NCBI GenBank assembly: GCA_015066085.1
Contig: SVPA01000010.1
Span: 1 to 49,426 of the forward strand
Length of the DNA: 49,426 bases
Source of the DNA: Oscillospiraceae bacterium
GTDB taxonomy: Bacteria > Bacillota > Clostridia > Oscillospirales > Acutalibacteraceae
Direction of reading: 5' to 3'
Position numbers and translations under genes: made by a program. Below, in pieces: positions 37,008-44,631 of the stretch (within the stretch, counting starts at the first letter, position 1; each line of letters opens with the position of its first letter). The notes beneath the pieces were generated by a model. The model saw only the letters and a list, made by a program, of their open reading frames with translations. It made no database searches and was not told the origin of the DNA.

Positions 37008-37358
37008 TTATAACATTCGTTTTAGTTTTTTAAGAACCGAAGTTTCAATTCTTGAAACATAAGACCTTGATATACCAAGTATTCCTGCAACCTCTCTTTG
37101 AGTAAGTTCTTTTTTACCGCCTATTCCGTATCTCATTTTTATTATTTCTTTTTCTCGGTCGTCAAGCTTTGTTTCAAGAAGCACCCGTAATTTTTCAAGT
37201 TTCATCTTCTTGTCAATCTCGTCTGCTATGTTTATGTCGTCGGCAACAACATCGACAAGGGTAAGCGCATTCCCGTCTTTGTCGGAATCAATAGGGTCGC
37301 CAAAATGTAAATCTTGTGCCGACTTTTTATTTGCTCTAAAATACATTAAAACCTCGTT
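37008..37358 (-). CDS. sigK: SigK, C-terminal half (gene split by the intervening element)
   Basis: Codes for the last 115 residues of the mother-cell sporulation sigma factor. It starts (by homology) at EVLMYFRANKKSAQDL and includes FGDPIDSDKDGNALTLVDV, LDDREKEIIKMRYGIGG and the region 4 helix-turn-helix TQREVAGILGISRSYVSRIE. The reading frame continues upstream to 37634 only as antisense of another gene, without a ribosome site or SigK-like sequence. The break at 37357-37359 corresponds exactly to the end of the N-terminal half at 44303-44305. Joined, codons read Ile-Glu-Asn-Glu-Val-Leu, as in Bacillus SigK. It is not expressible until the element is excised. Confidence 0.95.
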   Translation of the reverse strand, partial: NEVLMYFRANKKSAQDLHFGDPIDSDKDGNALTLVDVVADDINIADEIDKKMKLEKLRVLLETKLDDREKEIIKMRYGIGGKKELTQREVAGILGISRSYVSRIETSVLKKLKRML

Positions 37359-37380
37359 TGCTACTTTGACCTCAATGACA
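37357..37380. other. Left attachment junction of the element
   Basis: Core TTT (37357-37359) followed by the element-side arm 37360-37380. Read on the opposite strand, this arm starts TGTCATTGAGGT, against TGTCATTCAGGT at the right end. Confidence 0.85.
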
Positions 37381-37388
37381 CATCTTTC

Positions 37389-37841
37389 GTGGTCTTTGAT
37401 AATAGCGGAAAACCAATGCTCCACTTTGTTTACCCCTTGCGAACTATCAGCGACGATGCCACTATCGGTGAGAAGATTGCTTTTTACCGAAAGAAAAGGA
37501 ATCTGTTTGGCAACGACCTTGCAAACCTTATCGGCATTGACAGAGTAACAATGATACGATATGAGAACGACCAACTTGATTGCCCTTATGATGTGATTAT
37601 CCGCATATCTGAGGCACTCAATGTGGACAGGCATTTGTTAATGGACGAATACCTGCAGTTCATAGACTATCCCTACTCTGTATTCATAAAGCAACGACGA
37701 AAGGAGTTGCATTTGCGACAATGCGACCTCGGTGAGCAAGTCGGAGTTACAAGGCGACAGGTGGAAAAGTGGGAGCACGGGGTCTGTATGTTGCCGAAAG
37801 ACAGGTATCATAAACTCAAAGAGATTCACTTTATCCCATAA
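37389..37841 (+). CDS. Two-HTH (XRE) regulator, 5' end separated by integration
   Basis: 150 residues in the integrated state. Two tandem Cro/CI-type helix-turn-helix domains: GEKIAFYRKKRNLFGNDLANLIGIDRVTMIRYEN (about residues 26-60) and FIKQRRKELHLRQCDLGEQVGVTRRQVEKWEHG (about 98-130). No ribosome site fits GTG 37389 or ATG 37416. The frame is open leftwards to the att core, with protein-like sequence (CYFDLNDTSFVV). In the excised circle it joins in frame to 44278-44304, giving an ATG with AAAGGAG and a 169-residue product, or a fusion to the whole recombinase. It may thus be fully expressed only after excision. Candidate controller of the element's genes. Confidence 0.75.
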   Translation: MVFDNSGKPMLHFVYPLRTISDDATIGEKIAFYRKKRNLFGNDLANLIGIDRVTMIRYENDQLDCPYDVIIRISEALNVDRHLLMDEYLQFIDYPYSVFIKQRRKELHLRQCDLGEQVGVTRRQVEKWEHGVCMLPKDRYHKLKEIHFIP

Positions 37842-37843
37842 GA

Positions 37844-42138: not shown

Positions 42139-42489
42139 ATGAAACCAGTAACAATTAACAATGCCAAAAGAGGCACCAAGAACAAGTTTTTAGGTGGTTA
42201 TATCCAAAACATTTGGTATAACGAGGAAAAGGGTTACTTAACCTTTGGATTGAAAGTTGAAGATGTAGACCGTTCCTACTATGTCAACATTATGGTCTTT
42301 GAGTATACCGACCCCGAAACACATCTGCACCTTAATCCTAACTACGGGCTCATAGAGGATGCCTACGAAAAGGGTGTGCCGATTTCCTGTGTCTACCTGC
42401 AACAGGAGCGTTGCAACAAACTCATCGGTATGTATGTCAACTTCTCTGCCAATCAATATGCAGACCCACTTGACGACCTACCATTCTAA
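42139..42489 (+). CDS. Small protein with SSB-like acidic C-terminal tip
   Basis: 116 residues, predicted mostly beta: FLGGYIQNIWYNEEKGYLTFGLKVEDVDRSYYVNIMVFE reads like an OB-fold strand order. It ends in DPLDDLPF, closely resembling the DDDIPF tip by which single-stranded DNA-binding proteins recruit partners. Length is close to that of small SSB proteins, but no SSB core signature is clear. Role in element DNA transactions is inferred. AAAGGTGG precedes the ATG, and a TTGACA at about 42074 could be its -35. It is 60 bases upstream of the serine recombinase and probably cotranscribed. Confidence 0.6.
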   Translation: MKPVTINNAKRGTKNKFLGGYIQNIWYNEEKGYLTFGLKVEDVDRSYYVNIMVFEYTDPETHLHLNPNYGLIEDAYEKGVPISCVYLQQERCNKLIGMYVNFSANQYADPLDDLPF

Positions 42490-42549
42490 TAAGCCTTGCA
42501 AAATATCCGTTTCCATGAGAAAATATAAATAATATAGGAGGTTAAACAC

Positions 42550-44364
42550 ATGGAGAAAAAGTTTGCTATATATGTACGTAAATCAAAGTTGACCGAAAAG
42601 GGCAACAGTATTCAGGTGCAGATTGACAAGTGCCGCGCACATATTCTCACCGCCTTTGATGTACAGTCCACCGACGAGAACACAGACATCTTTATGGACG
42701 AGGGTCTGTCGGGTTTTTATGCTGACCGCAAAGAATTTGTACGGCTTATCAATTCCATTGACAACTATAAATGTCTGTTGTGCTACAAGGTGGACCGTGT
42801 ATGCCGCAACACAGGAGATATGATGGCGCTTATTGAGCACTTGAACAATCACAAGGTAACATTCATATCTTGCTCCGACAATATCACCAACATCACAAAA
42901 GAATCCACCCTTATCCTCGAATTACTGTCTGTTATTAGTGAATTCGAGCGAAATATCATTGCTGAGCGTATTTCTGACAATCTGCACGAGTTAGCAAAAG
43001 AGGGGCGATGGCTTGGAGGCAACACGCCGTTGGGATTTGTCTCTCAAAAGGATAATGTCACCATTCGGGGCAAGAAAAGCACAAAAAACCATTTGGAGCC
43101 CGTGGAAAGCGAACTGCAAGTAGTCAAAACCATTTTTCGTATGTACCTTGACACCAAGTCTATGAATGCAGTTCGGGACTATCTTAATGACAACGGTATA
43201 CTTACCCGAAACGGCAAACAGCACACAAGAACAAGTGTCAAGACTATTCTCCGCAACCCTGTATACTGCATTGCAGACAAGGACTCCCTTGCCTACTTTT
43301 CGGAGTTCTGCGAAACAATCTATGCAGAGGAGCACGAATTTGATGGTCAACACGGCTTGATGGTTTACAACAAGACAGAACAGCTAAAGAAGAAGAAGGA
43401 AAACTCCACCTTTTTGGAGCCAAAGTTTACCCAAATCATAACAAGCAAACCGATTAGTGATTGGATTATTGCCGTAGGCGTACACAATGGCATTATCAGC
43501 GGTTTTGACTGGATAAGGGTACAGAAACTGCTCCAACAGAACGTTGACAAGTACGACCGCCCCAAACAGGCCTCCAAGTCTGTGTTGAGTGGTCTTGTTA
43601 AGTGTCCTGTATGCGGTGAGCGAATGAATGTCAAAACCTTGTCCAACCGCTACACCAAGTCGGGCGACCTGCGGTTTAATTACCGCTGCCGTAAACGAAT
43701 GGAAGATAGATTCGGTTGCACAAGCAAAGACATCAACGGCAACGAGTTGGACCAGTTCATTATTGACGCTATCTGCCATATGAACTGCCCCGATGACCGC
43801 TACTATGCCCAGTTGCAGAATCTCCGTGAAGAACTGCTGAACGCACAGCGAGACGAGCAGAAAGAAATCAAAGGCCTTGAAAAAGAACTTGATAAGGTCA
43901 AAGCGGGTATTGCCGTGCAAATGGAGAACTTGCGGGAAAGCGGCCTGACTGCCGAAGATAAGCAACTGATTTGGGATGACATTCACGCCCTGCAAGAAAA
44001 GAGAAACGACCTCACAGACCGAATAGCGGTGCTTAACGAGCAAATAAAGGACGAGGAATACTCGCTTGAACAAATTGAGCAGGTCAAGGCCTCGATTGCT
44101 ACATTCCCACGCTTAATGGAGATTGCCACCTACGAGCAGACGATTGAACTAATCAAGAAGATTGTTAGTTTTATCGTCGTTAAACATAACGACACCACAG
44201 GGGACGATGATGTTCACATCGTCCTCTGTGGCGCGGAGGATTCCGTAAATTTTAATTTGGCACGCGAAAGGAGTGTGATGTGTCATTCAGGTATAGATAG
44301 CATTTTCAATACACCGTGCGGCATATGTTGCAAGGCGTATTCCCTTGTTACTCTTAAAGGTTGA
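42550..44364 (+). CDS. Large serine recombinase of the sigK element
   Basis: 604 residues. Resolvase domain (1-150) with catalytic Ser12 in YVRKS, DEGLSGFYADRKEF, the YKVDRVCRN Arg motif and SEFERNIIAERI. Recombinase domain (about 155-290) beginning GGNTPLGF. Zinc ribbon around 350-395 (CPVCGERM then CRKRMEDRFGC). Coiled coil about 430-530. Like SpoIVCA of Bacillus it lies at one end of the element, and probably excises it. AGGAGG precedes the ATG. The frame crosses the att core at 44303-44305: the last 20 codons are host DNA, antisense to sigK. In the excised circle the frame instead continues into the two-HTH gene, so the true C-terminus depends on the element's state. Confidence 0.93.
   Translation: MEKKFAIYVRKSKLTEKGNSIQVQIDKCRAHILTAFDVQSTDENTDIFMDEGLSGFYADRKEFVRLINSIDNYKCLLCYKVDRVCRNTGDMMALIEHLNNHKVTFISCSDNITNITKESTLILELLSVISEFERNIIAERISDNLHELAKEGRWLGGNTPLGFVSQKDNVTIRGKKSTKNHLEPVESELQVVKTIFRMYLDTKSMNAVRDYLNDNGILTRNGKQHTRTSVKTILRNPVYCIADKDSLAYFSEFCETIYAEEHEFDGQHGLMVYNKTEQLKKKKENSTFLEPKFTQIITSKPISDWIIAVGVHNGIISGFDWIRVQKLLQQNVDKYDRPKQASKSVLSGLVKCPVCGERMNVKTLSNRYTKSGDLRFNYRCRKRMEDRFGCTSKDINGNELDQFIIDAICHMNCPDDRYYAQLQNLREELLNAQRDEQKEIKGLEKELDKVKAGIAVQMENLRESGLTAEDKQLIWDDIHALQEKRNDLTDRIAVLNEQIKDEEYSLEQIEQVKASIATFPRLMEIATYEQTIELIKKIVSFIVVKHNDTTGDDDVHIVLCGAEDSVNFNLARERSVMCHSGIDSIFNTPCGICCKAYSLVTLKG
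44281..44305. other. Right attachment junction of the element
   Basis: Element-side arm 44281-44301 followed by A and the core TTT (44303-44305). Inverted partner of 37360-37380. Outside the core the sequence is sigK. Confidence 0.85.
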
Positions 44365-44631
44365 AACGGCCTTAATAAGACCTATTGTTCCAATCGAAAT
44401 AAGGTCTTCCTGTTCTGCGGTGCTACTGTAATACTTTTTAATTACATGAGCAACGAGCCTTAAATTATGTTCAATCAGTTTATTTTTAGCCTCTTCATCT
44501 CCTTGTTCCATACGCTCTATGAGGGCTGCTTCCTCCTTTGCCGAAAGGGCGGCGGGGAAAGAACCCGGCCCTGCAATATGAAGCGCAAGGTACATAATTG
44601 AAGATGCTATCTGCATTAAAAGTTCAAACAT
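44287..44631 (-). CDS. sigK: Pro-SigK, N-terminal half (gene split by the intervening element)
   Basis: Encodes the first 110 residues of SigK, ending RLATYAARCIEN at the att core; five further codons and the stop (AIYT) come from the element. A hydrophobic N-terminal segment (MFELLMQIASSIMYLALHIA) matches the pro-sequence that holds SigK inactive at the membrane until SpoIVFB-type cleavage. Region 2 follows: NLRLVAHVIKKYY and EDLISIGTIGLIKAVSTF. ATG 44631 with AGAGGGG 7 bases upstream is the start, rather than the earlier TTG. Restored length 225 residues, against about 241 in Bacillus. Together with the C-terminal half it is essential for late sporulation. Confidence 0.95.
   Translation of the reverse strand: MFELLMQIASSIMYLALHIAGPGSFPAALSAKEEAALIERMEQGDEEAKNKLIEHNLRLVAHVIKKYYSSTAEQEDLISIGTIGLIKAVSTFKSNKGIRLATYAARCIENAIYT

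Follow-up and report, generated by a model that had tools for sequence, protein, structure and literature searches.

Developmental excision of DNA in bacteria has been described in a few cultured spore formers, and sporulation intervening elements have been published in sigK, gerE, spsM and yabG (PMC5025042, PMC5595907, PMC4191935, PMC10747680, PMC10745906, PMC13141910). The subject here is a 6,946-bp element that splits sigK in a 49,426-nucleotide stretch of an Oscillospiraceae genome (contig SVPA01000010.1, positions 1 to 49,426; hereafter the window), one of a family of compact sigK elements that move horizontally. It is considered likely, with a probability of about 0.78, that this is a skin-type element excised in sporulation by its own serine recombinase, and that the excised circle rejoins the recombinase to a double helix-turn-helix (HTH) segment, the phage-type attachment site attP lying inside that gene.

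The skin element of Bacillus subtilis (spoIVCA, sigK) resembles the window element in splitting sigK, in the use of a serine recombinase and in a SigK made as a pro-protein (PMC5025042), but is described as prophage-like and 48 kb long (PMC13141910). The skin element of Clostridioides difficile (CD1231, CD1234) likewise splits sigK and has a serine recombinase beside one half; in contrast to the window, CD1231 lies beside the 3′ half, the opposite orientation, the element has 19 genes and SigK is reported without a pro-sequence. Excision of this element requires a small directionality factor (PMC5025042). The gin element in gerE of B. cereus ATCC10987 is also a non-phage element in a sporulation gene with a serine recombinase, GirC, acting with a factor, GirX, at a dyad att site with a predicted AA cut; unlike the window element, it has 31 genes, another target gene and three serine recombinases (PMC5595907).

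Two further systems are comparable in the placement of attP. In mycobacteriophage BPs, attP lies within a regulatory gene, so that integration shortens the product and changes its activity; the gene is that of the repressor, and the outcome concerns phage immunity rather than host development (PMC4557955). The archaeal suicidal integrases (SSV, pTN3 and pT26-2 types) have their target in their own gene, which is split on integration, but they are tyrosine recombinases and their halves are described as inactive; the same source states that recombinases disrupting their own gene occur exclusively in archaea (PMC8371274). The window enzyme, in contrast, is bacterial and a serine recombinase; its catalytic domains are all retained, and only an HTH extension is lost. 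The top-ranked listings from searches of open-licence PMC papers gave no recognisable example of a bacterial serine recombinase whose own gene contains attP. What appears new is the recombinase-HTH gene split by the same crossover as sigK, skin-type elements themselves being known.

The two halves of sigK and the ends of the element are as follows:

44303..44631, minus strand: sigK 5′ half, with pro-sequence-like N-terminus and region 2, through the AA core (TIGR02846 E 7e-45, profile 3-113; joined open reading frame, ORF)
37008..37358, minus strand: sigK 3′ half, with region 4, beginning with the AA core (TIGR02846 E 3e-36, profile 111-225; joined ORF)
44303..44304: attL exchange core, TT on the plus strand and AA on the sigK strand
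37357..37358: attR exchange core, TT on the plus strand and AA on the sigK strand
44277..44302: recombinase-side arm of attP, in a 26-nt inverted-repeat pair that is 81% complementary
37359..37384: attP arm on the HTH side, the partner in the same 26-nt pair

An earlier note on this DNA, made from the sequence alone, had placed SigK halves at 44631-44303 and 37358-37008 on one strand, and matches to TIGR02846 (the NCBIfam spore_sigmaK profile) locate both exactly there. The interruption falls at codon 110, and neither half contains stops or frameshifts. The break had been assigned to a single codon sharing TTT; indeed, the AA exchange core sits within an AAA common to both junctions on the sigK strand (TTT on the plus strand). 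Joining the halves in silico at this core restores the reading frame upon precise removal of the element, giving ATT GAA / AAC GAG GTT TTA (...RCIE/NEVLMYF...) and, from the ATG at 44631, the same 225-residue protein as reported before. The joined SigK scores 289.4 bits against PRK05803 SigK, above the cut-off of 252, and 287.2 bits against TIGR02846, slightly below the cut-off of 298.65. The attP dyad was reproduced at 16 of 21 positions and extends to 20 of 25 and 21 of 26; an inverted-repeat search blind to the coordinates recovers the same 26-nt arms (37359-37384 and 44277-44302). The chromosomal site attB is without dyad symmetry of the attP kind. A second intact sigK, which would have spoken against the note, was not found in the host genome (1.32 Mb, 29 contigs, 97% complete), where the next match is sigE at 46% identity. 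The comparison with related genomes that the note had proposed was also made: among ten genomes of the genus, several of them incomplete, sigK is whole in eight of the nine others and split in two (the window's own and G009). Because the halves are intact, attP is a dyad, the serine recombinase is complete, no second sigK is present, elements occupy the same site elsewhere and eight of nine other genomes of the genus are unsplit, the analysis supports a skin-type element whose precise excision would restore a SigK with a pro-sequence-like N-terminus.

The most unusual feature of the locus, which goes beyond what the note had observed, is an in-frame recombinase-HTH gene lying over attP:

42550..44364, plus strand: large serine recombinase, codons 1-585 within the element (Resolvase, Recombinase and Zn_ribbon_recom above Pfam cut-offs)
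37359..37841, plus strand: double-HTH (XRE-type) segment of 160 codons, in the recombinase frame across attP on the circle (HTH_19 and HTH_3, two matches each)

With the element in place, the frame of the recombinase passes attL and its final 19 codons (44305-44361) are antisense sigK, while the double-HTH segment could be read as a separate ORF from a GTG at 37389. On the predicted circle, the frame GAT AGC ATT crosses the core into TGC TAC TTT GAC... and continues free of stops into the double-HTH segment, giving a predicted recombinase-HTH ORF of 585 + 160 = 745 codons. As attP is located inside the frame of the recombinase's own fusion gene, integration splits both sigK and the recombinase-HTH gene. 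The integrated recombinase ORF retains all three recombinase domains and is deprived of the HTH extension alone. Two genes share one crossover site; both are split when the element is integrated and both are whole when the ends are joined.

The same link is found in relatives. The element at L145, oriented like that of the window, also forms a fusion on its circle, with 160 codons beyond attP. For elements of the other orientation, 17 were tried (G009 and 16 of the 18 loci in which the recombinase adjoins the sigK C half) and 16 were processed, the N half of G250 being unplaced; L149 (C half unplaced) and G022 and G307 (no whole N half) were left out of pairing. An HTH gene lies beyond attP in 13 of the 16, in the recombinase frame in all 13, and with an open frame in 12. 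The spacing between attP and the first base of the HTH match varies from 24 to 117 nt among elements, always at the same phase. Thirteen of 13 in phase corresponds to (1/3)^13 if the elements are independent, a figure that their kinship makes overstated. The open frame in G327 stops early within the second HTH, and the G009 recombinase is a contig-end piece of only 112 codons.

Recombinase-HTH proteins encoded by a single ORF occur naturally among distant kin (of 856 homologues, 120 were listed, and these include seven full examples and one partial). One of these, P0058, was modelled with AlphaFold2. The model is weak overall (mean predicted local distance difference test score, pLDDT, 61.5; 7 rows), with block means of 80-92 for residues 621-740 (double HTH) and below 50 for residues 567-608 (the att-encoded part, assigned by eye). 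Foldseek searches with this model rank serine integrases first, with P22 c2, SinR and C.AhdI appearing later for the HTH part.

The wider family was surveyed with a profile built from seven recombinases (the window's and six relatives) and run on 398 family genomes drawn from a larger group. At E <= 1e-80 there were 54 matches, and 30 loci were fetched. The best 19 of these are all at a split sigK; no sigK is present in the stretch at the other 11, which reaches ~1.5 kb per side where the contig allows. The recombinase adjoins the sigK C half, on the strand of sigK and as in C. difficile, in 18 of the 19; the window is the only exception in the set, its recombinase adjoining the N half and facing sigK. 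Outside the 19, L145, L146 and L158 are oriented like the window and L148, L185 and L188 in the opposite way. In the 16 elements whose two ends were both tested (G009 and 15 of the 18), the junctions lie at the same sigK codon with the same AA core; together with the 18 loci, this recurrence is beyond chance. In G009, the halves lie on two contigs with the AA core; the recombinase end (by eye) is beside the C half and the HTH beside the N half. The measured relatives are 4.3, 5.4 and 10.3 kb long. The earlier statement that the element is much smaller than the known examples holds relative to the B. subtilis element in the literature and to some others, but not relative to these relatives; its size is not exceptional among elements of this kind.

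Recombinase C-termini also record the site. Antisense-sigK tails are present in 23 of the 26 closest listed homologues (76-94% identity), beginning at residue 586 in 15 and at 587-594 in the rest; some of the tail matches are weak (weakest E 0.04). P0015 and P0025 have such tails by eye, and P0026 has 585 residues ending in DSK, an end that we read as probably marking the opposite orientation, with an AA core. Given the AA of attB on the sigK strand, reading from the recombinase must give a TT core for elements of the window type and an AA core for those facing the other way. With arms that are nearly symmetric, the central dinucleotide of attP would then set the orientation within sigK. In a FastTree tree of 54 recombinases, for which 20 of the 120 proteins were chosen and L105, L107 and L110 of the 30 loci were left out, a 28-member clade contains the window (support 1.0), as opposed to 21 C-half types (0.99). 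The 28-member clade includes four recombinases not found at sigK (L108, L109, L111 and L180).

Three side observations belong to this survey. L113 (G174:C31), a relative that is 37% identical to the window recombinase, lies away from sigK and ends near the 3′ end of rplT (by eye), a possible other target. At G307 C56:66177-78747, the sigK N half seems broken, with residues 5-67 and 58-110 ~6 kb apart before a further element, and this sigK may be interrupted twice. On an IMG/VR contig, L159 11700-11960 carries an unsplit GATAGCA-TT-TGCTATC site that follows a recombinase; a second serine recombinase adjoins it, tail to tail.

In the host genome, matches were obtained to models of SigF, SpoIIAB, SpoIIGA, SigE, SigG and SpoIVB, several scoring short of the curated cut-offs and some truncated by the end of a contig or locus. 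The SpoIIID model gives 106.3 bits against a cut-off of 111.5, and M50 peptidases are encoded that are candidates for SpoIVFB. The sigG gene is cut by a contig break (G000:C19 end, C18 start), with the same stretch on both contig ends. A Spo0A fragment at L200 (G000:C2:95058-95138) directly follows phage-tail-like ORFs near a contig end, and no other part of the Spo0A DNA-binding domain was found; a prophage may sit in spo0A as well. Upstream of sigK lies one regulatory candidate:

44653..44686, minus strand: putative sigK promoter, with SigE-like -10 CATACAAT and SpoIIID-like GGACAGGC

The motifs were assigned by what we take to be the SigE-like and SpoIIID-like consensuses. Among nine aligned genus sequences, GGACA is present in eight, CATA in all nine and the full CATACA in two. 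The motif scan gave no SigE-like site before the recombinase, a gene for a 57-amino-acid (aa) protein or a tyrosine recombinase gene of the element; one weak SigE-like match precedes the HTH gene, with threshold matches occurring ~0.94 per kb of strand in the window. The note's claim of a skin-like element restoring pro-SigK is upheld by the halves, attP, recombinase and same-site relatives; mother-cell excision, for which the scan gave no SigE-like promoter before the recombinase, is a prediction.

In the proposed mechanism, recombination of attL with attR by the serine recombinase would excise the element in the mother cell and rejoin sigK in the chromosome. Excision probably needs a directionality factor, a role for which position alone makes the 57-aa protein the best candidate. 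The excised circle would join the recombinase in frame to the double-HTH domain, and this fusion is most likely the integrating form. Integration would cut off the HTH domain to leave a 585-aa enzyme with a host-encoded tail, a form competent for regulated excision, and with a nearly symmetric attP, an AA or TT core (read from the recombinase) would set the facing of the element in sigK. Taken together, these steps would describe a self-editing bacterial serine recombinase, in which integration removes a DNA-binding domain to give the excising form, excision recreates both SigK and the integrating form, and a two-base change in attP sets the facing; this fuller proposal is tentative, with a chance that we place somewhat below even. 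Within it, mother-cell excision, its timing and the roles of the fusion and of the 57-aa factor are what we infer from the sequence. The published precedents are that attP within a gene lets integration change protein activity, as in BPs (PMC4557955), and that in integrase fusions to a recombination directionality factor (RDF) the C-terminal partner can set direction, the fused form there being the excising one (PMC5737554).

Several observations weigh against the reading of a skin-type element with a recombinase-HTH gene over attP. Excision, expression and the circle are all predictions, and the SigE-like match at sigK is weak evidence, as threshold matches occur ~1 per kb and strand. Of the Spo0A_C domain, no more than the final 27 residues were found, which leaves the ability to sporulate uncertain. 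Three of the 16 elements tested (G187, G237 and G324) are without detectable HTH beyond attP, the frame of G386 has a stop one codon past attP, and the L146 and L148 elements are unfused, so the fusion is common yet dispensable at the site. A single-ORF fusion with window-type HTH was not found when the HTH part of the 745-aa fusion was searched at E <= 0.001, and because no close single-ORF fusion was found, the circle may be rare or unassembled in the window's subfamily. Finally, a fused RDF favours excision, opposite to the assignment made here if the HTH part is an RDF (PMC5737554).

One alternative is that the element is a plain parasite that uses sigK as its attachment site in a lineage where sigK is dead, with no regulated excision. 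Its recent horizontal spread, the split in only two of ten genus genomes, the failure to find a SigE-like promoter before the recombinase and the fragmentary Spo0A_C would all suit such a parasite. Dead sigK, however, sits poorly with halves that carry neither stops nor frameshifts and restore one frame when joined, with a recombinase that retains all domains, with host matches to sigma factors F, E and G, SpoIIID and SpoIVB, and with the many elements that use the same sigK site; a plain parasite is therefore regarded as unlikely. It is also improbable that the link over attP is incidental, the HTH protein being an independent repressor read from its own start and the shared frame reflecting compact gene packing around attP. 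Possible starts do occur soon after attP (the GTG at 37389, and a methionine codon in several relatives), some elements are unlinked and the window-type single-ORF form was not found, but 13 of 13 HTH genes are in the recombinase frame, 12 of them open, despite distances of 24 to 117 nt, and natural single-ORF fusions exist among distant kin.

The third alternative assigns the HTH part itself the role of directionality factor, made separately in the integrated state to promote excision and fused on the circle to block re-integration. Known RDFs are other small proteins, which counts against this assignment. An integration-blocking fusion would moreover hinder spread, yet the element spreads, and the window HTH gene is antisense and at the far end from the sigK promoter. 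In the other orientation, in contrast, the HTH gene comes after the sigK N half and shares its strand, and published fusions of an integrase to an RDF promote attL x attR recombination and lower attP x attB (PMC5737554). On balance, this assignment is doubtful, and the fusion is preferred as the integrating form.

If the preferred mechanism is true, one DNA exchange remodels both a developmental switch of the host and the enzyme working that switch. Should the two recombinase forms differ in direction, the system would be a switch that resets itself and would offer a natural way of controlling the direction of serine integrases, which are widely used tools. The arrangement also contrasts with the published statement limiting recombinases that disrupt their own gene to archaea (PMC8371274). 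If the HTH link is also present in the skin recombinases of B. subtilis and C. difficile, the novelty becomes a new description of a known family.

The remaining contents of the element are listed here:

37877..38050, minus strand: conserved small protein of 57 aa (36 listed matches)
38123..40759, no strand assigned: extra cargo of 2,637 bp, absent from the L145 element (alignment with L145)
38276..40159, minus strand: lipoprotein-like protein carrying Big_2 and two Flg_new repeats, probably starting at ATG 40159 (lipoprotein call by eye)
40760..41020, no strand assigned: region preceding the tyrosine recombinase and present in L145, with strong predicted folding at 40880-41020 (z = -9.1)
41026..41907, plus strand: tyrosine recombinase, ORF open from GTG 40888 (Phage_integrase E 2e-15)
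42139..42489, plus strand: 116-aa protein ending DPLDDLPF, no family match

L145 (SVMI01000001.1, Oscillospiraceae metagenome-assembled genome SIG509) carries a 4,307-bp version of the element in its own sigK. Its proteins are 100% (116-aa protein), 94% (tyrosine recombinase), 98% (57-aa protein), 93% (HTH) and 81% (recombinase) identical to those of the window. Because the element DNA is 86-93% identical and has a guanine-cytosine content of 44% against 56% in the flanks at the L145 locus, while the sigK halves are only 49-64% identical, the element has spread horizontally, with near-identical genes in another host. Among the 36 listed matches to the 57-aa protein, one is identical and another, 98% identical, is on 719 contigs; distant kin are present in five related elements (weakest E 0.008).

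A viral origin was considered and set aside. A search of IMG/VR gave no relative of the window recombinase, and neither the 50,697 phage records nor the 5,000 top-scoring plasmid records searched gave a match covering 80% of P0058. Relatives of P0058 (64-65%) are on 2 of the 20 IMG/VR contigs found, and one of these two, L158, is at sigK in the window's orientation. The region 37000-44800 has no Rfam match, and no tandem repeats were found at default score.

The 2,637-bp cargo is inserted at a TA beside the strongly folded region. The layout of 38123-41020 is integron-like, with a lipoprotein cargo at the TA, a foldable region and a divergently placed tyrosine recombinase. An integron reading of the cargo, whose borders were aligned, is at most tentative: the geometry fits, but the integrase model TIGR02249 gives the tyrosine recombinase 39.5 bits against a cut-off of 265. 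At E <= 1e-60, this tyrosine recombinase is found in one of 394 genomes of the order, the window's own. The DPLDDLPF end of the 116-aa protein is presumably an SSB-like tail.

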